Of a stretch of 39,577 bases of DNA, positions 9,029 through 37,234 are shown piece after piece. A program made the position numbers and the translations under genes. The notes under the pieces were generated by a model. That model was not told the DNA's origin. It saw only the letters and a list, made by a program, of their open reading frames with translations, and did not search any database. How positions within the stretch are numbered: position 1 is the stretch's first letter; each line of letters starts with the position of its first letter. This stretch comes from an uncultured Actinomycetes bacterium (GTDB taxonomy: Bacteria > Actinomycetota > Acidimicrobiia > Acidimicrobiales > Ilumatobacteraceae): contig CAIQJP010000125.1 in the NCBI GenBank assembly GCA_903872155.1, positions 1 through 39,577 of the forward strand, read 5' to 3'.

Positions 9029-11836
9029 GTGCGTCGCCGAAGATCAGAAGATAACGACGTGATGCTTTTCAAGAATTCAGTCAATGCTCGAGCTCAGTCA
9101 ATATTCGACGAGTTCTTTTATGTGAACCTGTATACCGAGGTTGAAGGCAGCGGAATTTCCCCCGTTCAGCACTTCACTCGCGCCGGGTTTGATGAAGGCC
9201 GAGACCCTTGTGCGCTTTTTGATAGCGATTGGTATCGACATAAGTATGGAATCTCACGCGATGAAAATTGCTTAGCGCATTATCTTCGCAAAGGTTATAA
9301 ACGCGGTTTTGAACCAAGCCCATATTTCAATTCAGAGTTTTATCGTTCACAAGCAAAGGACATTCCAGAGAGTATTTCTCCACTTGAACATTTCAGAACG
9401 GTTGGCTGGAAGCGACTACTTGATGTGAATCCGTTGTTTGATACGGCTTGGTATCTTGATCAATTCAATGAACCACTCGGTCTGGGTGTTATCCCGATTG
9501 AGCACTACATCACCGAAGGGTGGCGAACAGGAAATTCGCCGAACCCGATGTTCATCTCCGATTCGTATTATGAGTTGAACCAAGATGTGAAGTACTCGGA
9601 CATCAATGCTCTGCATCACTATCTAGTATGGGGCCGTCAAGAGGGTCGAACAGTTTCTGAACTGATCGACAGCGATTGGTATGTGGCGCAGTATCCCGAC
9701 GATTCGATGGTTCAGTCGTGGGGAGCGCCTGCTCACTTTGCTCGCTTTGGTTCATGCGAAGGTCGAACCATTAGCCCAGATTTATTGGCCCAACGAATTA
9801 CACAATTCGCTTGTGATCGAGCACGTCGATTACGAAATCATCTTCAGTTAGAGGGTTATGGCGACACGTCATCTGACCCATTTGATCTTGAGGCTCGACT
9901 CAACTCACTAACCTTTGCGGGCTCTACCAGCCCCCGTGTTTCGGTGATTATCCCGACCTTTAATCATTCAAAAGATGTTGTTGCGTGTCTTGAAACCATC
10001 GCAATCGCCGCTGATCAAACCGCTTATGAAGTCATAGTTGTTGACGATTGTTCATCAGCCGACGAGTCGGCACGACTTTCACGAATTCCGGGCATTCGTT
10101 ACATTCGGCATGAGACGAACCAAGGCTTCTCGGGTGCTTGCACAACTGGGGTGAATGCTTCTTATTCAGAGTTTGTCTTGTTGCTGAACAATGACACTGA
10201 AGTGTTACCTGGATGGATTGATTCGCTTGTGGTCGAGATGGATGATCATCCGTCAACGGGCGTGACTGGTTCAATGATTCTTCGGGCCAATATGCGGCTA
10301 CAAGAAGCTGGTGGCATTATTTGGTCAGATGCAACTGGAGCGCACTACGGAAGTAATGACAATCCGTGCGGTTACCAATACCGATTCCGTCGATCGGTCG
10401 ATTTCTGCTCGGGGGCGGCACTTCTCATTCGTCGTGAATTGTGGAATGCCATGGGTGGTTTTGACCAGAAATTGGCGCCGGCCTATTACGAAGATGTGGA
10501 CGTTTGCTTTAACTCACGACGACATGGTTACGAATGTGTGTATCAGCCGAGTTCGTTGATCATTCACCGTGAGGGAAGTACTCATGGATCGTCGTCATTT
10601 GGGCTGAAGCGTAAGCAGTTCGAAAACCGTCATTTACTTGTTGACAAATGGCAAGTTGAGTTACGTGGTCAAGTTGAAGCGCCTGATGTTGAAAGAGATG
10701 CGGCGACTCTTCAGGCCCGTGATCGTCGACGTGAACGACATATTTTGATTTGTGACCATCAGCAATTAGATCCAAAATCTGATGCCGGGTCAGTCCGAAT
10801 GAATTACATCTTGAAAGAATTCGCTCGACGCGACTTCGTGGTGCATTTCTTGTCGGTTAGTACTTATAAAAGTCATAGTTGGGTTGATGACATCACTCGC
10901 GCTGGCGTCGAGATTTTGAATCCAGGTGATGAGGTCGAGCAGTTTTTGCTGAAGCATCGCGATGTTCTTGAATGCATCTTCGTGTCGCGGCCAGAGGTGA
11001 TGGCTCATCTGGCTACACAAATCGCATTGAATGCTCCGCAAGTGCCACTCATTTACGACATGGTCGATGCGCATGGTATGCGGCTTCGTCGAAAAGCCGA
11101 ATTGTTTGGTGAATTTTCTGTGAAGGATGCCGAACACATTGAAAGTGTGGAATCTAAAGCGGCCCGAATGGCTGATATCACGATTGCGGTTTCTCAGAGT
11201 GATGAGCAGTACATCCAAAAACTGTGTGGCGAAAGTCTAAAAACCGCAATCATTCCGACGATCCACCCGGTTGTTGATGGTCTAGAGAAATATGAGAACA
11301 GAAAAGGAATCTTGTTTGTGGGCGGATTTCAACACGACCCCAACGTTGATGCTGTGAAATTCTTGACAATGGAAATACTTCCGCGGGTGCAGCAAAAGCT
11401 AGACCCTATTGAACTAACAATTATTGGAAGCAACGCGACTTCTGAGATTTTTGAATTACAAAGCGAGTCGGTCAATGTTCTTGGATGGGTCGAAGATCTT
11501 CTACCGCATTACAACTCGCACAAGATGGTCGTAGCACCATTGCGCTATGGGGCAGGGGTTAAAGGCAAGATTGGTGAAGCTTTGAGCCATGGGATACCCA
11601 CAGTTACTACTTCGGTGGGCGTTGAAGGTATGCCTCTCATTAACGGCCAGGACATTTTGTTTGCTGATACTGCTGATGAAATTGCTGACGCTGTCGTCAA
11701 GGTTTACAACGATGAACAATTGTGGATCTCGTTGTCGCAAAATGGCCAGCGAAAGATCGATTCACTTGTTGGCAGCGAAGCGCTACGAAAAATGGTTGAC
11801 GATCTCTTGGATCAAGTAAGCGGTCTGAAGGCTTAG
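9029..11836 (+). CDS. Bifunctional glycosyltransferase (GT2 + GT4) with six N-terminal WY...HY repeats
   Basis: 935 residues in three parts. Residues 26-248 hold six degenerate repeats of about 35 residues. A GT2 domain spans about 302-530, with PRVSVIIPTFN, VIVVDDCS, LLNNDTEV (387-392) as the metal-binding motif and YYEDVDVCF near 487-494. A GT4-like domain runs from about 570 to the end, with LFVGGFQHDPN, NVLGWVEDL and APLRYGAGVKGKIGEALSHGIPTV. The fusion can make two consecutive linkages with one protein, as in rhamnan and capsule assembly. The start is uncertain: GTG-9029 has no clear Shine-Dalgarno, while ATG-9062 has AGAAG 11 bases upstream and overlaps the stop of a 16-codon reading frame (9012-9062). 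It converges with the GSCFA gene 10 bases downstream. Confidence 0.93.
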   Translation: MRRRRSEDNDVMLFKNSVNARAQSIFDEFFYVNLYTEVEGSGISPVQHFTRAGFDEGRDPCALFDSDWYRHKYGISRDENCLAHYLRKGYKRGFEPSPYFNSEFYRSQAKDIPESISPLEHFRTVGWKRLLDVNPLFDTAWYLDQFNEPLGLGVIPIEHYITEGWRTGNSPNPMFISDSYYELNQDVKYSDINALHHYLVWGRQEGRTVSELIDSDWYVAQYPDDSMVQSWGAPAHFARFGSCEGRTISPDLLAQRITQFACDRARRLRNHLQLEGYGDTSSDPFDLEARLNSLTFAGSTSPRVSVIIPTFNHSKDVVACLETIAIAADQTAYEVIVVDDCSSADESARLSRIPGIRYIRHETNQGFSGACTTGVNASYSEFVLLLNNDTEVLPGWIDSLVVEMDDHPSTGVTGSMILRANMRLQEAGGIIWSDATGAHYGSNDNPCGYQYRFRRSVDFCSGAALLIRRELWNAMGGFDQKLAPAYYEDVDVCFNSRRHGYECVYQPSSLIIHREGSTHGSSSFGLKRKQFENRHLLVDKWQVELRGQVEAPDVERDAATLQARDRRRERHILICDHQQLDPKSDAGSVRMNYILKEFARRDFVVHFLSVSTYKSHSWVDDITRAGVEILNPGDEVEQFLLKHRDVLECIFVSRPEVMAHLATQIALNAPQVPLIYDMVDAHGMRLRRKAELFGEFSVKDAEHIESVESKAARMADITIAVSQSDEQYIQKLCGESLKTAIIPTIHPVVDGLEKYENRKGILFVGGFQHDPNVDAVKFLTMEILPRVQQKLDPIELTIIGSNATSEIFELQSESVNVLGWVEDLLPHYNSHKMVVAPLRYGAGVKGKIGEALSHGIPTVTTSVGVEGMPLINGQDILFADTADEIADAVVKVYNDEQLWISLSQNGQRKIDSLVGSEALRKMVDDLLDQVSGLKA
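9104..9772 (+). repeat. Six degenerate repeats of about 35 residues coded in the double GT
   Basis: The coded units share F-[DN]-x2-[FW]-Y-x3-[FY] at the front and [PA]-x2-H-[FY]-x2-x-G-x2-E-G-R at the end, at about residues 26-58, 64-95, 100-130, 137-170, 175-208 and 213-248. The repeats are diverged at DNA level, so they are an old protein module rather than a recent expansion. Two more copies occur at the C-terminus of the GT at 1524-2849. Confidence 0.8.
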
Positions 11837-20469: not shown

Positions 20470-21372
20470 ATGCGTGCTGAGTTTTTAGACAAGTTATTTG
20501 AGATTGCGGAAAACGATGAGCGGCTAGTCTTTATGACAGCAGATCTTGGTTTTGGAGTAGTGGAAAAGTTTGCGGAGCGTTTCTCCAGTAGGTTCATAAA
20601 TGTTGGTGTAGCCGAGCAGGCCATGGTTGCAGCTGCTACCGGTCTTGCTGAAGCAGGACTCATCCCGTACTGCTATTCAATCGCAACGTTCACTTCTCTG
20701 CGGGCTCTCGAGTTCACTCGAAATGGTCCAATTGCACATGCGCTGCCAGTAAAGGTAGTTGGAGTTGGAGCGGGGATGGATTATGGATTTGACGGTTTGA
20801 CCCACTTCGCTGTAGATGATGTTGCGGCCCTTCGTGCTTATCCGGGATTTCTTATTTGGGCACCTGCGGATTCCGATGAAGTTACAAGCGACCTTGAAGA
20901 GATTCACAACGATCCACGTCCTGTATATATTCGACTTTTGCGTAGGGGGGAGAAAACAACTAATCAAAGACTTCACACGAATCCAAAAGTTTCGGCCCGC
21001 ACCGTGATCTTGAGCCTTGGTGATGCCCATACTCTCAGCGCCAAAATTGCACTGAAACTTGATAGTGCTGGTGTTTTTGTTGAACAGATATCTGTAACCA
21101 GGATCGATGATCAGACACTGACTCAGATTGCGAATTTATTGGGAGCGGTTGATTTCTGTGTGACTGTTGAAAATCATTTCATTATTGGAGGCCTAGGTTC
21201 CCTCGTTTGCGAGGCGGTAGCAACGAACGGAATTGATACAAAGGTCATCCGCGTGGGTGTTGAGGATCTGCCAATATCTGAATATGGGGACTCTGAATTC
21301 CTGGAGAAGCGATTTATGACAGATATTGGACTAGTTGTTGAGGAAGTTAGCAGAGGTAAGAGGCACAAGTGA
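20470..21372 (+). CDS. Transketolase-like protein, C-terminal (pyrimidine-binding) subunit
   Basis: 300 residues, with AGGGGAAAG before the ATG. The pyrimidine-domain features are RLVFMTADLGFGVVEKFAERF, INVGVAEQAMVAAATGLAEAG (the Glu that activates TPP) and YCYSIATFTSLRALEF, followed by the C-terminal domain with VILSLGDAH and TVENHFIIGGLGSLV. It works with the preceding subunit to form one active site. The stop overlaps the GTG of the epimerase-GT fusion (GTGA), so the three proteins are probably made in fixed ratio. The product acceptor is unknown. Confidence 0.95.
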   Translation: MRAEFLDKLFEIAENDERLVFMTADLGFGVVEKFAERFSSRFINVGVAEQAMVAAATGLAEAGLIPYCYSIATFTSLRALEFTRNGPIAHALPVKVVGVGAGMDYGFDGLTHFAVDDVAALRAYPGFLIWAPADSDEVTSDLEEIHNDPRPVYIRLLRRGEKTTNQRLHTNPKVSARTVILSLGDAHTLSAKIALKLDSAGVFVEQISVTRIDDQTLTQIANLLGAVDFCVTVENHFIIGGLGSLVCEAVATNGIDTKVIRVGVEDLPISEYGDSEFLEKRFMTDIGLVVEEVSRGKRHK

Positions 21373-23351
21373 CTGAAGAAGTGATTGCTTTTGATCCAAC
21401 AAACAGTATTTCAAAACTGGATGGCCCGATACTGGTAACAGGCGCAGGTGGGTTTATCGGGGCAGCGCTGTTGAAGTCTTTATTGGCAGTACGTTCAGAT
21501 GTGTTTGGGGTTGCGAGAAAGAAGAACTGGAGAATTTCGGAAAAAGAGATAGGTCATGTCTATTTCATCAATTTAGAAAACTCAAGTGAACTAGTAACTT
21601 GCCTAGATGAAATCATGCCACGGACAATTTTTAATTTGTCAGCGCATGGTGCTTACCCTGATCAAAACAATTTTGAATCAATTACGCGCATCAATTTAAA
21701 CTCTGCGAAATGGATTGCTGACTGGTGCTCTTCAAATCAGTGCGGGCTCGTGCAGGCGGGGACATCTTCGGAGTATGGGGTCAACTGTGCCGGGCCTTCT
21801 GAGCTTGATATTTGTAAACCAAATAGCCCCTACGCTGTCACCAAACTTGCGGCAACGCAGATGTTGGAATTGATGTGCAGTAACTCCAAACTTTCTGTCA
21901 CGGTTCTTCGGCTGTACTCCGTTTATGGGCCGATGGAAGAACCCAAACGTCTGATCCCAACATTGCTTCGGTTGGGTCGACGTGGAGAACTACCTCCATT
22001 TTCGCCGAGGGAAGTAACGCGAGATTTCGTATTCATTGACGATGCTGTCAACGCATTTATTGTCTCTGCGGTCACTCAAATTGGGATTCCAGGGTTTCGA
22101 TTATTCAATATTTGCTCTGGTGATTCAGTATCAATGGAGAGGGTAGCAAGCATTGCTGGTGAGCTTTTCGAGATTGACACTGCACCCATTTTTGGGCCAG
22201 CATTACGTCAATGGGATCTCGCTAAATGGTATGGGAACCCGAGCCGTGCACTCGAAGAAATGAATTGGCGAGTTACCACCAATTTTGCTGAAGGATTAAA
22301 AAAGACCCATGATTGGTACAACATTGAAAAGAATCAAAAGTATTTAGAAATTGATTTCAATGCGTCCGCCTCCTCCTTAGATAAACAAAAAATTAGTGCA
22401 ATAGTCGCTTGCTACAAGGATGCAAAAGCCATTCCCTATATGCACGATCGTTTGGTCGCAGTATTTAAGAAGATTGATATTGATTACGAAATCATTTTCG
22501 TAAATGACTGCAGTCCAGACGACACGCTTGACGTTATTGAAGAGATTTCAAAGTCCAATCCCAAGGTGATTGGAATTTCGCATAGTCGTAATTTCGGTTC
22601 CCAGGCTGCCTTCATGTCAGGCATGAACATTGCCACAGGAGATGCATGCGTTTTGCTCGACGGCGATTTGCAGGATCCGCCCGAGTTAATTGAGGATTTC
22701 GTTGAAAACTGGCGACAAGGATTTGATGTCGTGTATGGCAGGCGTGTCGGCCGAGAGGCCCCACTCTTGATGAGATTTTGTTACAAGGCGTTCTATCGAT
22801 TGCTTGCAAAGGTTTCAACTTTTGCTGTGCCTCTAGACGCTGGTGACTTTTCTCTAATGTCAAGAAGAGTGGTTGATCAATTGCTAAGGATGCCCGAGCG
22901 GGAACTCTTCCTTAGGGTGGCGAGGGCATATGTCGGCCATAAGCAGTTAGGCATAAGTTATGTACGCCCAGAAAGAATGTTTGGAACTTCAACTAACAAT
23001 TTGAGACGAAATTTCGGATGGGCAATACGTGGGATCGTAGCTGTTGGCAGGGCACCGCTTTCCTTAGTGACTGCGTTAGGAACAGTTCTGTTCGGATTGA
23101 GTTTGACAGCAATTGGGGCTCAAATGGCGATCAAGATAATTGATCCTTCACTATCTCCACCTGGATTTGCTTCAGTTTTGACTATCAGCACCTTTTTTGG
23201 CTCTATCAATTTGCTAGCGATATCAATAATTGGGGCGTATGTTGGCCGCACTTTGGAAGAATCAAAGGGCCGACCGCGTTTCATAGCGGAGAAAATCACA
23301 GTAAACGGTCGGACGACAGATTTTGATCAGGTTGATATCTATGCAAAATAG
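21369..23351 (+). CDS. Fusion of NAD-dependent sugar epimerase/dehydratase and polyprenyl-phosphate GT2
   Basis: 660 residues. Residues about 20-320 are an extended short-chain dehydrogenase: GAGGFIG (25-31), TSSEYG (132-137) and Y155-x3-K159 in SPYAVTKLA. Residues about 340-655 are a DPM1/GtrB-type GT2: ISAIVACYKD, IIFVNDCSPDD, HSRNFGSQAAF, LLDGDLQDPPEL (DGD 431-433), and two C-terminal membrane helices (about 565-635) ending in GRTLEESKGRP. The first half would finish an NDP-sugar and the second would load it on a polyprenyl phosphate at the membrane. The fusion is continuous with no frameshift. The GTG start overlaps the transketolase stop by 4 bases. Confidence 0.93.
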   Translation: MTEEVIAFDPTNSISKLDGPILVTGAGGFIGAALLKSLLAVRSDVFGVARKKNWRISEKEIGHVYFINLENSSELVTCLDEIMPRTIFNLSAHGAYPDQNNFESITRINLNSAKWIADWCSSNQCGLVQAGTSSEYGVNCAGPSELDICKPNSPYAVTKLAATQMLELMCSNSKLSVTVLRLYSVYGPMEEPKRLIPTLLRLGRRGELPPFSPREVTRDFVFIDDAVNAFIVSAVTQIGIPGFRLFNICSGDSVSMERVASIAGELFEIDTAPIFGPALRQWDLAKWYGNPSRALEEMNWRVTTNFAEGLKKTHDWYNIEKNQKYLEIDFNASASSLDKQKISAIVACYKDAKAIPYMHDRLVAVFKKIDIDYEIIFVNDCSPDDTLDVIEEISKSNPKVIGISHSRNFGSQAAFMSGMNIATGDACVLLDGDLQDPPELIEDFVENWRQGFDVVYGRRVGREAPLLMRFCYKAFYRLLAKVSTFAVPLDAGDFSLMSRRVVDQLLRMPERELFLRVARAYVGHKQLGISYVRPERMFGTSTNNLRRNFGWAIRGIVAVGRAPLSLVTALGTVLFGLSLTAIGAQMAIKIIDPSLSPPGFASVLTISTFFGSINLLAISIIGAYVGRTLEESKGRPRFIAEKITVNGRTTDFDQVDIYAK

Positions 23352-29889: not shown

Positions 29890-31173
29890 TTAGCGGCCAA
29901 TTCCTTGATAGGTAAATCCGGCGCGTTCCCAGTCTTTGCGATCAAGCAAATTGCGTGCATCGACGATCTGCTTGCCGGTCATTTCAGTAGCAATCGTTGA
30001 TGGAGAAATCCATTTGAAATCATCCCATTCGGTAAGAACTGCAAGCACATCGGCACGTGAAGTTGCTTCATCACTTGATGCGGCAATCACAAGATCGTTC
30101 GGTAATCCTGGGCGAATGACATTGACAGTTGGGTCATATGCCTGAACCCGTGCCCCGAGCTTCGTGAGGCGTTCAATGATGGCGATGGCTGGCGAGTCAC
30201 GAAGATCGTCGGTGCCAGCTTTGAAGGTGAGGCCCCAAACTGCAACAATTTTGCCACTCAAATCTCCGCCAGCCGCGAGTCGAATCTTGTCGGCGACGCG
30301 ATCGAGCTGTTGGTCGTTGACGGTAATCACACCCTTGAGAAGATCGAATGAATAGTCGGCGTCTTCGGCGATCTTGATGAGTGCTCGTGAGTCTTTCGGG
30401 AAACAACTGCCGCCCCAACCGGGTCCGGGACGTAAGAAGTTTTCGCCGATGCGCTTGTCACTACCAATTCCGACAACGACATCATTGATGTCGGCACCGA
30501 CACCTTCGCAAATGGCGGCGATGGCATTAATGAACGACAACTTAGTTGCCAAGAACGCATTGGCTGCGTACTTAATAGTTTCCGCCGATGCTGGGTCGGT
30601 GATAATGACTCGAGTTGAGAGACCGTCATAGAGTGAAGCAACTTTCATCGCTGCCGCCTGATCGTCACTGCCCACCACAACGCGGTCGGGCTTTAAGAAG
30701 TCTTGAACTGCCGAACCTTCACGCAAGAACTCGGGGTTTGACACAACCTTCACATCGGGTCGCTTCAAAGCCTTTTCAACGACCTTGGTTGAGCCAACCG
30801 GAACAGTTGATTTATTGACAACGATTGCTTCAAAGGGAAGCACCGCAGATATTTCTTCTGCTGCACGTTGCACGTAACTGAGGTCGGCAGAGCCATCTTC
30901 GCCTTGGGGTGTGGGCACACAGAGAAACGCGATGTCACAGTTTTTCGCGGCCTCAGTCGAACCCATGACAAATGACAACCGGCCTGACGCCATACCGTCT
31001 GCCACGAGATCGGCAAGCCCAAGTTCGACGATCGGGATGATTCCGTCTCGCAGTTTGGCGATTTTGTCGGCGTCGATGTCAGCACAAACGACGGTGTGAC
31101 CAAGGTGGGCCAGACAAGCACCGGTGGTCAGACCGACATAGCCAGTTCCGATGACGGCGATGCGACAGGACAT
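29890..31173 (-). CDS. ugd: UDP-glucose 6-dehydrogenase
   Basis: 427 residues. GTGYVGLTTGACLA is the NAD site; FLCVPTPQGEDGSADLSYV, NKSTVPVGST, NPEFLREGSAV and GPGWGGSCFPKDSRAL with the catalytic Cys (C257) complete the Ugd pattern, and a C-terminal GLTFKAGTDDLRDSPA follows. It oxidises UDP-Glc to UDP-GlcA. ATG start at 31171-31173; the 77-base region to the divergent acyltransferase gene must hold the promoter of this operon (ugd, uxs, galE, algX-like, MBOAT, methyltransferase), but no clear -35/-10 pair is visible. A 7-bp inverted repeat there is too short to call. Confidence 0.97.
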   Translation of the reverse strand: MSCRIAVIGTGYVGLTTGACLAHLGHTVVCADIDADKIAKLRDGIIPIVELGLADLVADGMASGRLSFVMGSTEAAKNCDIAFLCVPTPQGEDGSADLSYVQRAAEEISAVLPFEAIVVNKSTVPVGSTKVVEKALKRPDVKVVSNPEFLREGSAVQDFLKPDRVVVGSDDQAAAMKVASLYDGLSTRVIITDPASAETIKYAANAFLATKLSFINAIAAICEGVGADINDVVVGIGSDKRIGENFLRPGPGWGGSCFPKDSRALIKIAEDADYSFDLLKGVITVNDQQLDRVADKIRLAAGGDLSGKIVAVWGLTFKAGTDDLRDSPAIAIIERLTKLGARVQAYDPTVNVIRPGLPNDLVIAASSDEATSRADVLAVLTEWDDFKWISPSTIATEMTGKQIVDARNLLDRKDWERAGFTYQGIGR

Positions 31174-31250: not shown

Positions 31251-31955
31251 ATGAACCAGATTCATCCCACAGCAGTTATTGGTCCAGACGTCAAAATCGG
31301 AACGGGCAATAAGGTTGGGCCATACGTGGTCATTCTCGGAAATACCGAAATTGGCGATGACAATTGGATTGGGCCTCATATTTCGATCGGAACGCCAGGT
31401 GAAATTCGAGGTGGTGATCATCCAGTTTTGTGGGACGGATCGGGCAACAACGCCACAGTGACAATTGGTAACCGAAATGTGATTCGTGAGTTCACGGCTA
31501 TTCATTCAGGCAAAGTCACCGGCACAAAAATTGGTGATAACTGCTACATCATGAATAACTCGTATATTCCGCACGATGGTTTTCTGGGAAACGACGTAAC
31601 AATCAGTGGTTCTGTGATGCTTGGTGGTCACGCTCAGGTGCTTAACGGAGCAAATCTTGGGATGGGTGCCGTAGTTCATCAACGCCTTGTGATTGGTGAG
31701 CGGGCCATGGTGGGAATGGGAGCAGTCGTTACCAAGAGTGTTTTGCCGTACGCCACTGCTTTCGGTAATCCAGCAACGATTCGCAATGTCAACAAGGTCG
31801 GGATGGAGCGAGCCGGATTATCAAATGAACTTATTCAACAATTGGGTGACGCATTAATGTCTGGAGATGAAAAGGCGATGACAAATTTGGTTGGTGACAA
31901 GATGGCTGATTTTGCAAACGCGATTGCAGTTGCAATAGGAAATAGTGTTCACTGA
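31251..31955 (+). CDS. LpxA-like left-handed beta-helix acyltransferase
   Basis: 234 residues from ATG-31251, with GAGGAG eight bases upstream; an in-frame start at 31191 lacks a ribosome site. Hexapeptide repeats run from IHPTAVIG onward. Landmarks of UDP-GlcNAc acyltransferase are kept: TIGNRNVIREFTAIHSG, YIPHDGFLGN (H108, matching the catalytic His of LpxA), VHQRLVIGERAMVGMGAVV, and GNPATIRNVNKVGMERAGL leading into a short helical tail that is shorter than in E. coli LpxA. It would acylate an amino sugar on UDP. The nearby aminotransferase/oxidoreductase pair supports a 3-amino-sugar substrate. Confidence 0.88.
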   Translation: MNQIHPTAVIGPDVKIGTGNKVGPYVVILGNTEIGDDNWIGPHISIGTPGEIRGGDHPVLWDGSGNNATVTIGNRNVIREFTAIHSGKVTGTKIGDNCYIMNNSYIPHDGFLGNDVTISGSVMLGGHAQVLNGANLGMGAVVHQRLVIGERAMVGMGAVVTKSVLPYATAFGNPATIRNVNKVGMERAGLSNELIQQLGDALMSGDEKAMTNLVGDKMADFANAIAVAIGNSVH

Positions 31956-31969
31956 TAACTGTTCGAAAC

Positions 31970-33148
31970 CTAATTAGTCAATTCATGAAAAACCGTTAGA
32001 TACTTTTCTGCGACTATTTCGACAGAAAAATTCTTTGTGATCAAATCCAATTGTTGAATTTGCATTTCCTCAAGCTGCGCTGAATCTGCGTTGAGCAGAT
32101 CAACAATTTCATGAGAAAGTTGGCTGGTGGATAAGCCTGACAAAATTCGAACTTTCGGCCATTGACCCAGATCAATTCCGGGGAAGACGTCGCTGTCCAC
32201 GCTTGCAATGATCGGTACACCGGCGGCCATGACTTCAAAGGTTGTGATACCGATTCCATGAATGTCAAGGTCATGGGTTTCGATATGAGCTGCAGCCAAA
32301 TAGTCGGGGACATCAACATGGGGGACGCGTCCGACAACGGTGATGTGACTCGCCACTCCTAGTTCTTCGGCAATTTTCAAAAATGTGGTGTCGTACACTT
32401 CGCCGACGACGACGACTTGGGCATTCGGAACCTTGCTGAGTATTTCAGGAAGGGCGCGAATTAACGGAATACGACTTCGAATTGGTATGACGTGACCGAA
32501 TGACAAAATGACTTTCTTATTTGCTAGGTCATAATGATCAATAATGCGGGTGGGGTCCCCGGCCCCGAATGCACGAACATCAAGGGTGGCGGGAATAAAT
32601 CCGACCGGGGTTTTGGGTTTGTAACGGCGCTGAACCATGTCCATGGTGAAACGGTCGACGCCAAAGATGCGACTTTTCCCAGTATTGGCAAACGGTCGCA
32701 ACACCAAACGGTCGACAGTAGAAATCAGCAATCGAGCAAAAGTATTCGTATGGGTTAAAGGTGTATGGACTGTGAGTACCCGAGGAATCTTGCGGCGCCT
32801 GGCCACGAGTGTGGTTGCCAACGTGAGATCAAAAAATTGACCATTTTGGTGGATGACATCGGGTTCAAAAGCCTTGAAGATCTTGTTGAGACGACGAAAG
32901 ATTGAAGGCCTGATGCAGAACGGCAGTCGATAGTTGAATGAAACTTTGCCAGGAGCGATCCATTTTGCGGGGACTCGCGTAATGTGTATGCCATCAATAT
33001 GGTCACTGGTTGACGTGTTCTCAGGTTGCGTTGTGACAACCATGACCTGATGCCCTTGACGAAGGTACTCGCGAGCCATATCGAAGGAAAAATGTGAACT
33101 TCCGGTCGTCATGGGAGGAAAAAAGGCGTTGACAATGAGAATTTTCAT
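31970..33148 (-). CDS. Family 4 glycosyltransferase (GT-B)
   Basis: 392 residues from the ATG at 33146-33148, with AAAGG ten bases upstream. A longer frame reaching 33265 would run onto the divergent aminotransferase start and begins with an unlikely N-terminus, so it was not used. The GT4 pattern is MKILIVNAFFPPMTTGSSHFSFDMA, DVIHQNGQFFDL, LSFGHVIPI (donor-site hinge), VVVVGEVYDTTFLK, and a C-terminal HGIGITTFEVMAAGVPIIAS with the acidic nucleotide-sugar-binding block. It lies antisense between the LpxA-like and aminotransferase genes and converges with the former (14 bases). It may use the UDP-amino sugar made next door. Confidence 0.92.
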   Translation of the reverse strand: MKILIVNAFFPPMTTGSSHFSFDMAREYLRQGHQVMVVTTQPENTSTSDHIDGIHITRVPAKWIAPGKVSFNYRLPFCIRPSIFRRLNKIFKAFEPDVIHQNGQFFDLTLATTLVARRRKIPRVLTVHTPLTHTNTFARLLISTVDRLVLRPFANTGKSRIFGVDRFTMDMVQRRYKPKTPVGFIPATLDVRAFGAGDPTRIIDHYDLANKKVILSFGHVIPIRSRIPLIRALPEILSKVPNAQVVVVGEVYDTTFLKIAEELGVASHITVVGRVPHVDVPDYLAAAHIETHDLDIHGIGITTFEVMAAGVPIIASVDSDVFPGIDLGQWPKVRILSGLSTSQLSHEIVDLLNADSAQLEEMQIQQLDLITKNFSVEIVAEKYLTVFHELTN

Positions 33149-33264
33149 ACTATTTAGACCTTTGAACGACTGCGGTATTGATAGTAGAGGGTGATCACTT
33201 GCAGATTGCCGATAGTTGAACCATTGACGAACATAAAATAGACGAGATTCAGAGAAGAGAGACA

Positions 33265-34365
33265 ATGCCTATACCCATTACCAATGTGCAATTAGGGCCA
33301 GAGGTTGAAGCCTCGGTGCTCGCAGTGATCCGATCGGGGATGATTGCCCAGGGCCCTGTCGTTGCGCAACTCGAAAAATCGTTCGCCGAAATGACTGATG
33401 TCAAACATGTTGTTGCGGTCAATAACGGAACAACGGCACTCATTGCAGCGCTTGAGGTTCTTGACCTTCAGCCCGGAGATGAAGTCATCACGAGCCCCTT
33501 CACTTTTGTCGCCACCCTGAATGCAATTTTGTCAGCAGGAGCAACTGCCCGCTTCGCTGATATTTCAGCCGAAGACTTCAATGTCACGACGGCCAGCCTG
33601 GCCAGCCTTGTGAACGAGCGCACCAAGGTCTTGATGCCCGTGCATCTATATGGACAAGTGGCCGATATGGAGGGTATTAGTGAGTTGGCAAGCTCTTCCG
33701 GGGCACGCCTTGTTGAAGATGCGGCACAGGCACATTTGGCGTCCCTCAATGGCAAGGCGGCGGGCACCTGGGGTATCGGATGTTTTTCGTTGTATGCAAC
33801 GAAGAATCTCACATCTGGTGAGGGCGGTTTGATTTCGACCAACGATGACGATATCGCTGATCGATTACGCGTTTTGCGCAACCAAGGTATGCGTCAGCGT
33901 TACCAATACGAGATGGCTGGAAACAACTATCGCATGACCGATCTACAAGCAGCAGTATGCGTGCCGCAACTAGCAAAGTACGAAGAAAATGTCCGTCGCC
34001 GTAACGAGAATGCCCTTGCTCTTAACCAGGCGCTTGCCGACATTACATGGGTACAGACTCCGCAAGTCCTCGAGGGGCGCGGTCATGTGTGGCACCAATA
34101 CACAATTTTGGTTCGTGACGGTGGCCCAGTTGACCGTGATGAATTGATCGCACATCTCACAAAGCTCGAGATTGGTTGCGGCATTTATTATCCGAAGATC
34201 GTGTACGACTACGACTGTTACCGACAAGACTCTCGGGTCATTACCGATTCGGTGCCTGTTGCTGAAGATGTAGTTCGACGTTGTGTGTCGTTGCCGGTGC
34301 ACCCAGGTGTTGGGCCACGGGAGATTGAGGAAATCGCCACAGCGATTCGGATGGCTACAAAATGA
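33265..34365 (+). CDS. DegT/DnrJ/EryC1/StrS sugar aminotransferase (GnnB/WlbC-like)
   Basis: 366 residues of the PLP sugar-aminotransferase family. VVAVNNGTTALIAALEVL, SPFTFVATLNAIL, VHLYGQVADM, LVEDAAQAHLA (PLP Asp, D152) and CFSLYATKNLTSGEGG with the Schiff-base Lys (K180), then NYRMTDLQAAV. The long form of the EDAAQAHLA and TKNLTSGEGG blocks is typical of 3-keto-sugar aminotransferases such as WlbC and GnnB. AGAAGAGAG lies before the ATG. Its stop overlaps the start of the Gfo/Idh/MocA gene by 4 bases (ATGA), so both enzymes are made together. The reaction would be amination of a UDP-3-keto-GlcNAc or related sugar. Confidence 0.95.
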   Translation: MPIPITNVQLGPEVEASVLAVIRSGMIAQGPVVAQLEKSFAEMTDVKHVVAVNNGTTALIAALEVLDLQPGDEVITSPFTFVATLNAILSAGATARFADISAEDFNVTTASLASLVNERTKVLMPVHLYGQVADMEGISELASSSGARLVEDAAQAHLASLNGKAAGTWGIGCFSLYATKNLTSGEGGLISTNDDDIADRLRVLRNQGMRQRYQYEMAGNNYRMTDLQAAVCVPQLAKYEENVRRRNENALALNQALADITWVQTPQVLEGRGHVWHQYTILVRDGGPVDRDELIAHLTKLEIGCGIYYPKIVYDYDCYRQDSRVITDSVPVAEDVVRRCVSLPVHPGVGPREIEEIATAIRMATK

Positions 34366-35294
34366 GTGCACCTGTAAAAATAGGACTCATCGGTGCTGGA
34401 AACATGGGGGCACTTCACGCTCGCACTATTTTCAATAATGCCTCAACAGAATTGGCTTGGGTATGCGACCCGCAAGAAAAGATCGGCTTGGGAATCGCCG
34501 GAAAGTATTCAAGCCGTTACATCAATGAGCCCGATTTGGCGGCAGTTGATGCCGTCGTGGTTGCGGCCCCGACTCAATTTCACTTCAATATTGGCAGTGA
34601 AATTATCTCGGCGGGTCTACCACTGTTGTTAGAGAAGCCTCTCGCAAATTCGCTTGGTGAAGTTAAAGATTTGATTGAATTGTCCGCCAAGAAAGGCAGT
34701 CCTCTGATGTGCGGATTGCTTGAACGATTTAATCCAGCAGTTCGAACTGCCTTTGATCTCTGTCGTGACCCAATTCATTTCAAGTCGGTGCGTCATTCGC
34801 CAATGACGGCTCGTATCGTTACTGGGGTCACAGGCGATCTATTGATCCATGACGTTGATTTAGCCCTGACTTTGTTTGGTGAACTCCCAGTGAAAACACT
34901 GGGTTTGACTGATTCAGTTAATAACTCGGTTGAAGACGTTGTCGAGGCATTATTGAATTTCGGTTCTGGCCGAGTTGGTTCATTGTCCGCATCACGACGT
35001 TCGCAGCGCAAAGTTCGAGCAATCACTATTGCGGAAGGCGAACGATTGATCGAAGTTGACCTGCTCCGCCAAGACATCACCATCTACAAACATGTATTTG
35101 AGTCAATTACTGACGACGAAATTGGATACCGACAACAGACAATTATTGATATCCCAATGTTGCATCACCATGGAGAACCTTTGATGATGCAACTTGATCA
35201 TTTTGTCGCATTGATTAACGGTCAACAAGATGTTGAAATTGAACGGTCGCGAATTATCGGGCCACATCAAGTCATCAACGATGTCTTGAAGTGA
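34362..35294 (+). CDS. Gfo/Idh/MocA-family oxidoreductase (GnnA/WlbA-like)
   Basis: 310 residues. IGLIGAGNMGALHARTI (NAD loop, residues 11-16), VVVAAPTQFHF, LLLEKPLANS (EKP 91-93) and a late GDLLIHDVDLALTLFG (His/Asp/His-type substrate block) are typical of the family. A member coupled by a 4-base overlap to a DegT aminotransferase is the usual arrangement for oxidation at C3 of a UDP-sugar before transamination. The order is aminotransferase then oxidoreductase. Its TGA overlaps the ATG of the following membrane protein (TGATG), continuing the operon. Confidence 0.93.
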   Translation: MSAPVKIGLIGAGNMGALHARTIFNNASTELAWVCDPQEKIGLGIAGKYSSRYINEPDLAAVDAVVVAAPTQFHFNIGSEIISAGLPLLLEKPLANSLGEVKDLIELSAKKGSPLMCGLLERFNPAVRTAFDLCRDPIHFKSVRHSPMTARIVTGVTGDLLIHDVDLALTLFGELPVKTLGLTDSVNNSVEDVVEALLNFGSGRVGSLSASRRSQRKVRAITIAEGERLIEVDLLRQDITIYKHVFESITDDEIGYRQQTIIDIPMLHHHGEPLMMQLDHFVALINGQQDVEIERSRIIGPHQVINDVLK

Positions 35295-37234
35295 TGAAAT
35301 TGCGTCTAAAGACTATTTCTTGTGGCGCTGTGGCAATAGCTGCGTATGGGCTAACGAGATTCGCCGCCGAGATCGGTTCAACCGAAAGATTGCTGGCTAT
35401 CGCAATTCTTTTAACCGGAATCGCAGTTCTCAATAGGTCCTTTGACCGATTTCTCGTTGCAATTTTGTTAATCATTGGATTTAGCCCAATGCTGGGGTGG
35501 ATTTCTGGACTATCAGATGTCGTTGATCCTGTCGCCTTGGTACTCGCGACGATGTTTGGGTTCTCGTGTTACTCATGCGAAAGAATCGGTCGCCGGCATG
35601 CGTTTGAAGTAGCGATAGTTGGTGGGTCAAGTTTGCTCACACTGTGGTTCTGGCAGATGTATTGGCGAGTAAGTCCAGGCCGTGAGCCGTTGTCGCTGTT
35701 GTTAAATGGCTGGGATCATGTTTCGCACTTTAATTTCTTCTCGATGTCAACTGTGCATGACTCATTTTTATCGAGAGTGCCTCACCCTGAGGGGGTGACC
35801 GAATGGTTTACTGAAAAGTATCCAGCGGGCATACAGATGTTTTGGTCGCAATTGGCAAGGATTCCTCGGGGTCTTTCCAACGACGTCAATCATCTATTGA
35901 TTGTTTATAGCAGGATCAATGTTGCCAATATGGCTCTTATTCTGGTTCTTGCATTGGTCTCGGTGTTTCGAATTATGCGGTCAACGAAATTCACGTTGTT
36001 CATCGCTTGTGCGTTGGCTGTGGGGGGATTTGTTCTCATCGGGCCGTTGTCAATTTCCTTAACTACAGGATTCCCTAATTTTGGAATTACGTGTGGCGCT
36101 CTTTTTGTTGGCGCATCAGTCATTCTTCGACCCATGGAAGTCCCCTGGCAAAACTCAGTGATCCTTAACGGTGTCATTCTGGTTTGTGCGTATAACTGGT
36201 TTCCTGCTGCACTACCAATTTTGATTCCAGCCGGAGTTTTGCTCTTATCAGATTTCGTGAAAGCACCGAAGAGAACAAAGCAGATCCTTCTCTTTATTTC
36301 AGCTGCCGGGTTTTTTGGTTCGGCGATTCCGATTTTGCAAAATTTAAGTGTCGGAACATCTCACCTTGAGGAAACTGGGGGAATACCAATAATCAATCCC
36401 CTTTATCCTGTTGTCTTTGGTTTGTTCTCAGTTGCACTGTCGTTGCATAACTCACACAGTTTCAAATTGGTGAGTCTGATTAGAAATTTCGCAGTTCCGG
36501 TAGTCAATATTCTCCTTGTGCTCGGCATCGCTATTTCAAACCGTCTGAATACGGGTGGCTATCCGTACTATTCTCAAAAATTTCTATATCTTGGGACAGC
36601 GATCGCCTTCGCATGGACTCTTATGCAACTGGTGGTCTGCGTGGACCAAGTGGGCCACACCGATCTTGATTTTAAAGGTCGGGCCAGATATTCAATTTCT
36701 TACGTGTTGTTTGGCTTGTTGAGCCTTCAAATTTGGGGTTACGTTGGGCCAGATTATTCGTTGTTGGCAGGAGTTAATGCAGGTCCTGCTTTGAATACGA
36801 GGGCAGTGCTTCATTCGGGCCGTGGCTATATGAACCATTCGATATCGATACTTGAAGCAATCCATCGTGATCAGCAATTTGCGCTTGGCGTTGAACGACC
36901 TGTTCTGATTATTGATTCAGTTCCATCGGCGGCACATCCGATTTTGCTGAACTATTGGCCAGGGGTGCTGAATCAGCGATTTGATGATGCACAGTTTCAG
37001 GCTGCTCTCAAAATGGGCAATGTCAGCATGGTTCCCTTTTTTAGTTTTCCAGAATTTGTCGCCACGTTTAATGCGCAATTCGTACCGTTTGAAGTTGACA
37101 TTGTGACCACCCAAGAGTTTGCTCGTGAATTATTGAAGGTCAATCCCGAATGGTCGGAGAGTATTTATCTGTATGAGGGCGATGACCTCGGCGCAACCAT
37201 TACTAAGTATGAGGGCGCCGAATTAGTCGGGTAA
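35294..37234 (+). CDS. Large polytopic membrane protein, probable GT-C glycosyltransferase
   Basis: 646 residues from ATG-35294 (a GTG one codon earlier is possible). There are about eleven hydrophobic segments up to residue ~490 and then a soluble C-terminal region of about 150 residues. The first large loop carries LLNGWDHVSHFNFF, an Asp/His-bearing motif in the position of the GT-C catalytic loop, followed by PHPEGVTEWFTEKYPAG. This fits polyprenyl-phosphate-sugar-dependent enzymes, though I cannot name the family. It is translationally coupled to the oxidoreductase, so it may use the amino sugar. Its end overlaps the convergent DUF2142-like gene by 12 bases. Confidence 0.8.
   Translation: MKLRLKTISCGAVAIAAYGLTRFAAEIGSTERLLAIAILLTGIAVLNRSFDRFLVAILLIIGFSPMLGWISGLSDVVDPVALVLATMFGFSCYSCERIGRRHAFEVAIVGGSSLLTLWFWQMYWRVSPGREPLSLLLNGWDHVSHFNFFSMSTVHDSFLSRVPHPEGVTEWFTEKYPAGIQMFWSQLARIPRGLSNDVNHLLIVYSRINVANMALILVLALVSVFRIMRSTKFTLFIACALAVGGFVLIGPLSISLTTGFPNFGITCGALFVGASVILRPMEVPWQNSVILNGVILVCAYNWFPAALPILIPAGVLLLSDFVKAPKRTKQILLFISAAGFFGSAIPILQNLSVGTSHLEETGGIPIINPLYPVVFGLFSVALSLHNSHSFKLVSLIRNFAVPVVNILLVLGIAISNRLNTGGYPYYSQKFLYLGTAIAFAWTLMQLVVCVDQVGHTDLDFKGRARYSISYVLFGLLSLQIWGYVGPDYSLLAGVNAGPALNTRAVLHSGRGYMNHSISILEAIHRDQQFALGVERPVLIIDSVPSAAHPILLNYWPGVLNQRFDDAQFQAALKMGNVSMVPFFSFPEFVATFNAQFVPFEVDIVTTQEFARELLKVNPEWSESIYLYEGDDLGATITKYEGAELVG

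Follow-up and report, generated by a model that had tools for sequence, protein, structure and literature searches.

The window analysed here is a stretch of 39,577 nucleotides (contig CAIQJP010000125.1 of assembly GCA_903872155.1) from an uncultured actinobacterium of the family Ilumatobacteraceae. It carries a gene for an LpxA-like acyltransferase near genes for a DegT-family aminotransferase and a Gfo/Idh/MocA-family oxidoreductase (hereafter DegT and Gfo), a combination that the initial annotation, made from the sequence alone, had linked to an N-acylated 3-amino sugar. The LpxA-like gene begins with an ATG at position 31251, with GAGGAG upstream of the start, and the DegT and Gfo genes overlap by 4 bases (ATGA), as had been described. 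The family GT4 glycosyltransferase placed in the same block is also present, but on the minus strand and between the LpxA-like gene and the DegT/Gfo pair (Table 1), so that a single transcript of the three genes is unlikely in the window. A scan for promoters and terminators returned sites that were rarer than in shuffled sequences.

Table 1. Genes at and beside the LpxA-like locus, with coordinates in the window (UDP-GlcNAc, UDP-N-acetylglucosamine; UDP-GlcNAc3N, its 3-amino derivative; ORF, open reading frame; aa, amino acids; AF2, AlphaFold2).
Feature	Coordinates	Strand	Basis and proposed role
LpxA-family left-handed beta-helix acyltransferase, 234 aa	31251..31955	+	Pfam, AF2, phmmer; proposed UDP-GlcNAc3N 3-N-acetyltransferase
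GT4-family glycosyltransferase	31970..33148	-	Pfam
DegT/DnrJ/EryC1/StrS aminotransferase	33265..34365	+	PF01041, 372 bits; proposed GnnB role (3-keto to 3-amino)
Gfo/Idh/MocA oxidoreductase	34362..35294	+	PF01408; proposed GnnA role (UDP-GlcNAc 3-dehydrogenase)
ORF of 647 aa, hydrophobic by eye	35291..37234	+	4-base overlap with the oxidoreductase gene
UDP-glucose 6-dehydrogenase-like gene (TuaD group), divergent neighbour	29890..31173	-	NCBIfam

The LpxA-like protein scored above the Pfam cut-offs for Hexapep and Acetyltransf_11 (LpxA domain 2); the PF13720 match, though above cut-off, covers only positions 2-39 of 82. LpxA models were its top NCBIfam matches, with the LpxA equivalog models below cut-off (NF003657, 164.9 as compared with 226 bits; TIGR01852, 153.0 as compared with 231.05 bits). 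Since LpxA models lead its family matches, membership among the serine or galactoside acetyltransferases was rejected. The AF2 model (pLDDT 92.5) consists of a beta-helix and C-terminal helices, and its best match by Z was E. coli LpxA (Z 29.5, 1.7 Å over 218 residues). It also matched 8e62 (Z 25.4, 2.0 Å over 181 residues, 37% identity) and the WlbB entry 3mqg (Z 20.1). The 8e62 chain is Pcryo_0615, which the title of its PDB entry describes as an N-acetyltransferase needed for a diacetamido-2,3-dideoxy sugar, and it ranked first in a phmmer search with the LpxA-like protein against solved sequences (115.5 as compared with 113.8 bits).

In a tree of 82 rows, from which the repeats L032-L034, L080 and L101 (of L036-L038), 16 near-copies and 4 outgroup rows were left out, 22 LpxA sequences of the lipopolysaccharide (LPS) type formed a clade at 100/100 that excluded the window protein, the actinobacterial rows and 8e62. 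The LpxA-like protein grouped with LpxA and Pcryo_0615 outside this clade, and not with the serine or galactoside acetyltransferases that had been raised as a possible refutation. Constraining the actinobacterial rows and 8e62 to stand together gave a slightly better fit than the free tree (p-AU 0.574). On this tree, the actinobacterial family is set apart from LPS-type LpxA, but the tree supports no single branch order among the window protein, Pcryo_0615 and LPS-type LpxA.

The oxidoreductase is nearest to GnnA by both sequence and fold, in accordance with the GnnA/GnnB-type logic suggested initially. The GnnA of Acidithiobacillus ferrooxidans (7bvj) came first by phmmer (82.8 bits) and in a search with the Gfo family profile (137.1 bits; next 114.8), and it ranked first in Foldseek. 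The AF2 model of Gfo (pLDDT 89.9) matched it in the VIA comparison with a Z of 33.5 and a root-mean-square deviation of 2.5 over 290 residues; the best VIA row that is not GnnA has a Z of 31.5, and fold alone would therefore not decide the identity. The chains 3q2k and 3q2i, which we take to be WlbA, scored 51 and 41 bits with the family profile as compared with 137 for GnnA, and no entry under the name WlbA appeared in the VIA table for this model. The best NCBIfam match was NF040723, an archaeal UDP-GlcNAc 3-dehydrogenase, below cut-off (122.2 of 450 bits). The reading of DegT as a 3-aminotransferase comes from this oxidoreductase partner and not from its own sequence.

Among 100 genomes (the source genome and 99 relatives), a close match to the LpxA-like protein was found in the source genome only, the next best scoring 61 bits. 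Across the phylum, 6 of 396 genomes matched at E 1e-15, comprising four genuine cases (the source genome, G369, G278 and G363), one contig, L035, considered below, and one weak match. The LpxA-like gene is thus patchy and accessory in the phylum. A collection of 84,980 species provided a wider sample, in which 354 of the 591 candidate stretches listed were confirmed and the best 80 loci were kept: 66 from Actinomycetota, including the repeats L080 and L101, and 14 from Gram-negative bacteria. With minimum scores of 330 bits for DegT and 190 bits for Gfo, homologues of both lay in the fetched flanks of 51 of the 66 actinobacterial loci, in 47 of them within 3 kb, and loci with both partners fall under 23 of 30 labels, mostly genera. 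A genome-wide search for 13 of the 15 flank-negative loci found Gfo at E 1e-30 in 9, DegT at E 1e-80 in 9 and both in 7 (the Gfo of one of these, L081, being weaker at 172 bits), which brings the loci with both partners to 58 of 66.

The arrangement of the genes is also conserved. Of the 56 loci with a DegT, 45 have the LpxA-like gene divergent from it and no more than 500 bases away. The exact 4-base DegT/Gfo overlap recurs in 37 of 52 pairs of related loci, a count that depends on gene starts picked by script. Homologues of GT4 that score 200 bits or more occur in 30 of the 66 actinobacterial loci; the 14 Gram-negative loci gave none at E 1e-10. G369 belongs to the same order as the source genome, and there the genes run Gfo, GT4, DegT and then the divergent LpxA-like gene, a layout different from that of the window. 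A search with Gfo matched 14 of the 396 phylum genomes, the top four being the four with a genuine LpxA-like gene; the fifth, G055, followed closely (210 as compared with 213 bits). Given the conserved linkage in related loci, a chance neighbourhood of the three genes was rejected.

Of 64 actinobacterial loci, 46 encode a homologue of a membrane protein of the PF03706 type (LPG_synthase_TM, YbhN-like), whose gene in 15 of them starts at most 400 bases from where the LpxA-like gene ends; the family assignment was checked for L099:7910-8905 and L040:8723-9784. It could be part of a glycan export or lipid-linkage step. No homologue was found in the window at E 1e-6.

The initial annotation had presumed a bacterium without LPS, and the genome agrees with this. 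In the source assembly (2.81 Mb in 165 contigs, 97.4% complete), lpxC, lpxB and lpxD had no match at E 0.001, LpxK and the later steps not being part of the search, and the sole match to LpxA domain 2 was the LpxA-like gene itself. Control genomes were matched by LpxC in 4 of 14, LpxB in 6 of 14 and LpxD in 4 of 14 cases. At the 66 actinobacterial loci, no match to LpxB, FabZ, LpxC or LpxI was found at E 1e-6; FabZ and LpxD matched in all 14 Gram-negative loci as a control. A lipid A pathway in this organism was rejected on the genome-wide result. A 2010 survey (PMC3087551, in excerpt) gives seven Gram-positive genomes without lipid A enzymes. We also observed an lpxC/fabZ fusion with lpxA on a 3.3 kb contig in an actinobacterial bin (L035; genome G434, contig C187), which was rejected as a further actinobacterial LpxA and is probably contamination.

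Residues of the active site and acyl channel were compared, in E. coli LpxA numbering, between 68 actinobacterial rows (window included) and 24 LPS-type LpxA rows, L035 being counted with the latter; Amycolatopsis near-copies were retained, so that the counts refer to sequences and not to independent events. In E. coli LpxA, as described in excerpts of PMC6286764, His125 and Asp126 form the catalytic dyad, Gln161 and Asn198 hold the alpha-phosphate and the uracil, Gln73 and His122 hold the 3-hydroxyl of the acyl group, Lys76 contacts the sugar ring oxygen, and Gly173 and His191 limit the chain length. Excerpts of PMC6408518 state that G173M switches the enzyme from C14 to C10, that LpxA takes its donors from acyl carrier protein (ACP) only, and that His160, Gln161, Arg204 and Asn198 are suggested for ACP binding. 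The ruler of P. aeruginosa LpxA is given as Met169 (PMC6820557, in excerpt).

The catalytic His noted at first was recovered, as His108 of the LpxA-like protein aligns with His125. In all 92 rows, His125, Asp126, Gln161 and Asn198 were kept, and the changes fell on the 3-hydroxyacyl and channel positions. Met occupied the acyl-ruler position 173 in 68/68 actinobacterial rows, as compared with Gly in 14 and Met in 5 of the 24 LPS-type rows. Position 155 was Met, Leu or Ile in 68/68 rows as compared with Gly in 21/24, Gln73 was found in 0/68 (Glu in 64/68) as compared with 23/24, and Lys76 in 0/68 as compared with 21/24. Position 220, which together with 216 we take to touch ACP, was basic in 4/68 rows as compared with 24/24 (Lys or Arg), and the mean C-terminal net charge was -3.5 as compared with +0.5. 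The window protein has Glu at 73 and Met at both 155 and 220. It is identical to 8e62 at positions 73, 122, 125, 126, 155, 160, 161, 173, 191 and 198; in 8e62, positions 73, 76, 155 and 173 are occupied by Glu, Ala, Met and Met. Since the channel and 3-hydroxyacyl positions are changed across the actinobacterial set in a way that matches Pcryo_0615, an acetyl group seems likelier than a fatty acyl group. On balance, the residue set favours a short acyl group, most simply from acetyl-CoA.

Lys76 was also replaced in the second LpxA of two Ectothiorhodospiraceae genomes, beside GnnAB-like genes, and, judged by eye from a QDLG motif, a small residue replaces it in Leptospira LpxA, an enzyme selective for UDP-GlcNAc3N. 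Lys76 is retained, however, in the LpxA of L111 and L118, although these too lie near a Gnn-like pair, so that its loss is a lead for a 3-amino substrate and not proof of one. The Ectothiorhodospiraceae second copies (L109:7989-8708 and L116:7974-8711) exist besides an LpxA next to lpxD, fabZ and lpxB.

Related genomes offered a further comparison. In G055, of the same family as the source genome, a DegT 52% identical to that of the window directly follows a gene that has WlbB (3mqg, E 6e-48) as its best relative among solved proteins, and a 37% identical Gfo lies more than 1 kb further on, on the opposite strand. In L147, of the same order, a beta-helix gene lies directly beside a 52% identical DegT, and the Gfo gene is some 9 kb distant. 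Different beta-helix families thus seem to occupy the position of the acetyltransferase, and this lends support to acetyl transfer.

Taken together, these results suggest that the module probably supplies a cell-surface glycan with UDP-2,3-diacetamido-glucose. In the proposed route, the GnnA-like oxidoreductase would oxidise C3 of UDP-GlcNAc, DegT would aminate the resulting 3-ketone to give UDP-GlcNAc3N, and the LpxA-like protein, acting as a trimer, would acetylate the new 3-amino group with acetyl-CoA to yield UDP-2,3-diacetamido-2,3-dideoxyglucose. A glycosyltransferase would then use the sugar, perhaps the GT4 enzyme encoded between the genes. The N-acylated 3-amino sugar proposed at the outset, and its use in a surface glycan, are retained in this scheme; the glycolipid suggested beside the glycan is disfavoured, as the channel positions agree with Pcryo_0615. 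By title and start of abstract, an LpxA-family enzyme with such a pair in actinobacteria was not found in open-licence papers among the matches listed.

Several observations weigh against this proposal. The lead of 8e62 in the phmmer search is narrow, at less than 2 bits; the family profile ranks Burkholderia LpxA first and 8e62 second (187.4 as compared with 180.8 bits); the fold comparison lists are headed by LpxA entries; and a single clade of the window protein with LPS-type LpxA was not rejected (p-AU 0.407). The C-terminal helices missing from the shorter 8e62 chain are kept in the LpxA-like protein. Among the residues suggested for ACP binding, His160, Gln161 and Asn198 were each kept in 68/68 actinobacterial rows and Arg204 in 65/68. 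His99 was kept in 57/68. We know of no activity for any member of the actinobacterial LpxA-like family. The LpxA fold with its C-terminal helices and the kept residues suggested for ACP binding would suit a fatty N-acyltransferase, transferring a chain of C10 or shorter from ACP to UDP-GlcNAc3N for a glycolipid. Met173 is compatible with C10 acyl chains (PMC6408518, in excerpt), the partner genes are the same as at the lipid A loci with a Gnn-like pair (L109, L111, L116 and L118), and the PF03706-type protein is found near many of the related genes. However, we consider fatty acyl transfer decidedly unlikely, since Gln73 and the small residue at 155 are lost in every actinobacterial row and the basic residue at 220 in 64/68, the C-terminal charge has shifted to negative, and the lipid A genes sought were found neither at the 66 loci nor in the genome.

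Other points concern the partners. The best curated model for DegT is PseC, a 4-aminotransferase, reached below cut-off (266 of 423.5 bits); among solved chains the aminotransferase is nearest not to GnnB but to a scyllo-inositol transaminase and perosamine synthetases. In the window, an opposite-strand gene parts the acyltransferase from the DegT/Gfo pair. The full pair was not found in 8 of the 66 loci, 6 of which were searched genome-wide and two (L065 and L099) in the flanks only. L039 and L096 have Gfo without a DegT at E 1e-80, and no Gfo was found genome-wide at E 1e-30 in L043, L045, L083 and L098; L043 and L083 have DegT (that of L043 46% identical), and in L045 and L098 neither partner was found at these limits, with only more distant aminotransferases near the gene in L043, L045 and L098. 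The LpxA-like enzyme might then acetylate another sugar nucleotide, and merely share a surface-glycan island with the pair. We regard this as very improbable, given the divergent LpxA-like/DegT arrangement in most loci that have both and the co-occurrence of Gfo with the LpxA-like gene across the 396 phylum genomes.

The neighbouring genes raise the question of a uronic-acid product. A gap of 77 bases separates the 6-dehydrogenase gene from the LpxA-like gene, and if the dehydrogenase acted first, as in the Wlb/Wbp pathways, the module would give UDP-2,3-diacetamido-glucuronic acid; Psychrobacter and, with a further epimerase, the teichuronic acid of Streptomyces provide the precedents. The PDB title of Pcryo_0615 links it to a diacetamido-2,3-dideoxy sugar, and PMC10622841 cites a title that names the uronic acid; S. 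griseus makes ManNAc3NAcA (PMC13274773, in excerpt). In the L147 region, a distant homologue of the 6-dehydrogenase, 26% identical, stands between DegT and Gfo. The window enzyme, on the other hand, scores as a UDP-glucose type (442 bits with the TuaD model, whose cut-off of 700 is not reached, as compared with 76 bits with the TviB model), it exceeds the cut-off of an NCBIfam subfamily model for nucleoside-diphosphate-sugar dehydrogenases, and its gene adjoins two epimerase/dehydratase genes, one of them above the GalE cut-off. No homologue was found at E 1e-10 within the fetched flanks of the 66 related actinobacterial loci, and the oxidoreductase is nearer to GnnA than to 3q2k and 3q2i. We therefore think a uronic-acid product quite unlikely, and judged the 6-dehydrogenase gene to lie outside the module. 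On the other side, the 647-residue ORF had no match in Pfam or NCBIfam; it is perhaps co-transcribed with the oxidoreductase gene, because the two overlap. Elsewhere in the window, an NAD-dependent epimerase/dehydratase domain is joined to a GT2 glycosyltransferase domain in a single ORF (21369-23351), and a 935-residue protein (9029-11836) combines GT2 and GT4-type domains in one chain.

For the preferred reading, a route to a diacetamido sugar, we can offer an evolutionary extension that we hold to be speculative and rather unlikely. The actinobacterial family and Pcryo_0615 might form a sister branch of LpxA that is free of lipid A and acts together with GnnA and GnnB. One ancestral UDP-GlcNAc3N acyltransferase would then have given rise both to the first lipid A acyltransferase and to an N-acetyltransferase of cell-wall glycan sugars, and LpxA may derive from such a short-chain enzyme by opening of the acyl channel and gain of an ACP patch. 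More immediately, an LpxA-family gene in an actinobacterium, which may well be annotated as lpxA, need not signal lipid A or contamination, and positions 73, 155 and 220, with 173, provide a testable residue rule to separate acyl-ACP LpxA from its putative acetyl-type relatives. The gene set is common to many actinobacteria and most likely serves a doubly acetylated surface sugar rather than a lipid; among the bacteria predicted to display 2,3-diacetamido-glucose at the cell surface are Amycolatopsis, Rhodococcus, Lentzea and Cellulomonas.

The proposed module can be compared with four known systems. The GnnA-GnnB-LpxA route makes lipid A with GlcN3N (Acidithiobacillus and Leptospira type); it employs the same three enzyme families, and the window shares with it an oxidoreductase nearest to the A. 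ferrooxidans enzyme and a replaced Lys76. In contrast, the window genome has no lpxC, lpxD or lpxB match, fabZ was not found at the related loci, and neither the acyl channel nor position 220 is conserved. WlbB and WbpD, whose substrate is a uronic acid, resemble the proposal in the 3-N-acetylation of a UDP-3-amino sugar, and in L140 a close homologue of DegT has a WlbB relative next to it; WlbB and WbpD belong, however, to another left-handed beta-helix subfamily with a lower structural match. Pcryo_0615 of Psychrobacter cryohalolentis has the LpxA fold and shares Glu73, Tyr122, Met155, Met173 and Pro191 with the window protein, whereas it is a chain of 189 residues without the C-terminal helices, comes from a Gram-negative host and, judged from the title cited in PMC10622841, belongs to a pathway that yields a uronic acid. 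Lastly, the S. griseus utr system (PMC13274773, in excerpt) likewise concerns a 2,3-diacetamido sugar on an actinobacterial wall, the ManNAc3NAcA teichuronic acid, by a predicted utrA/utrB/utrJ route of aminotransferase, oxidase and N-acetyltransferase. Unlike the proposed module, this system includes a UDP-sugar dehydrogenase and a 2-epimerase, and its product is a uronic acid. According to the same source, umbrella toxins have a polymer of a related sugar as their receptor in Streptomyces.

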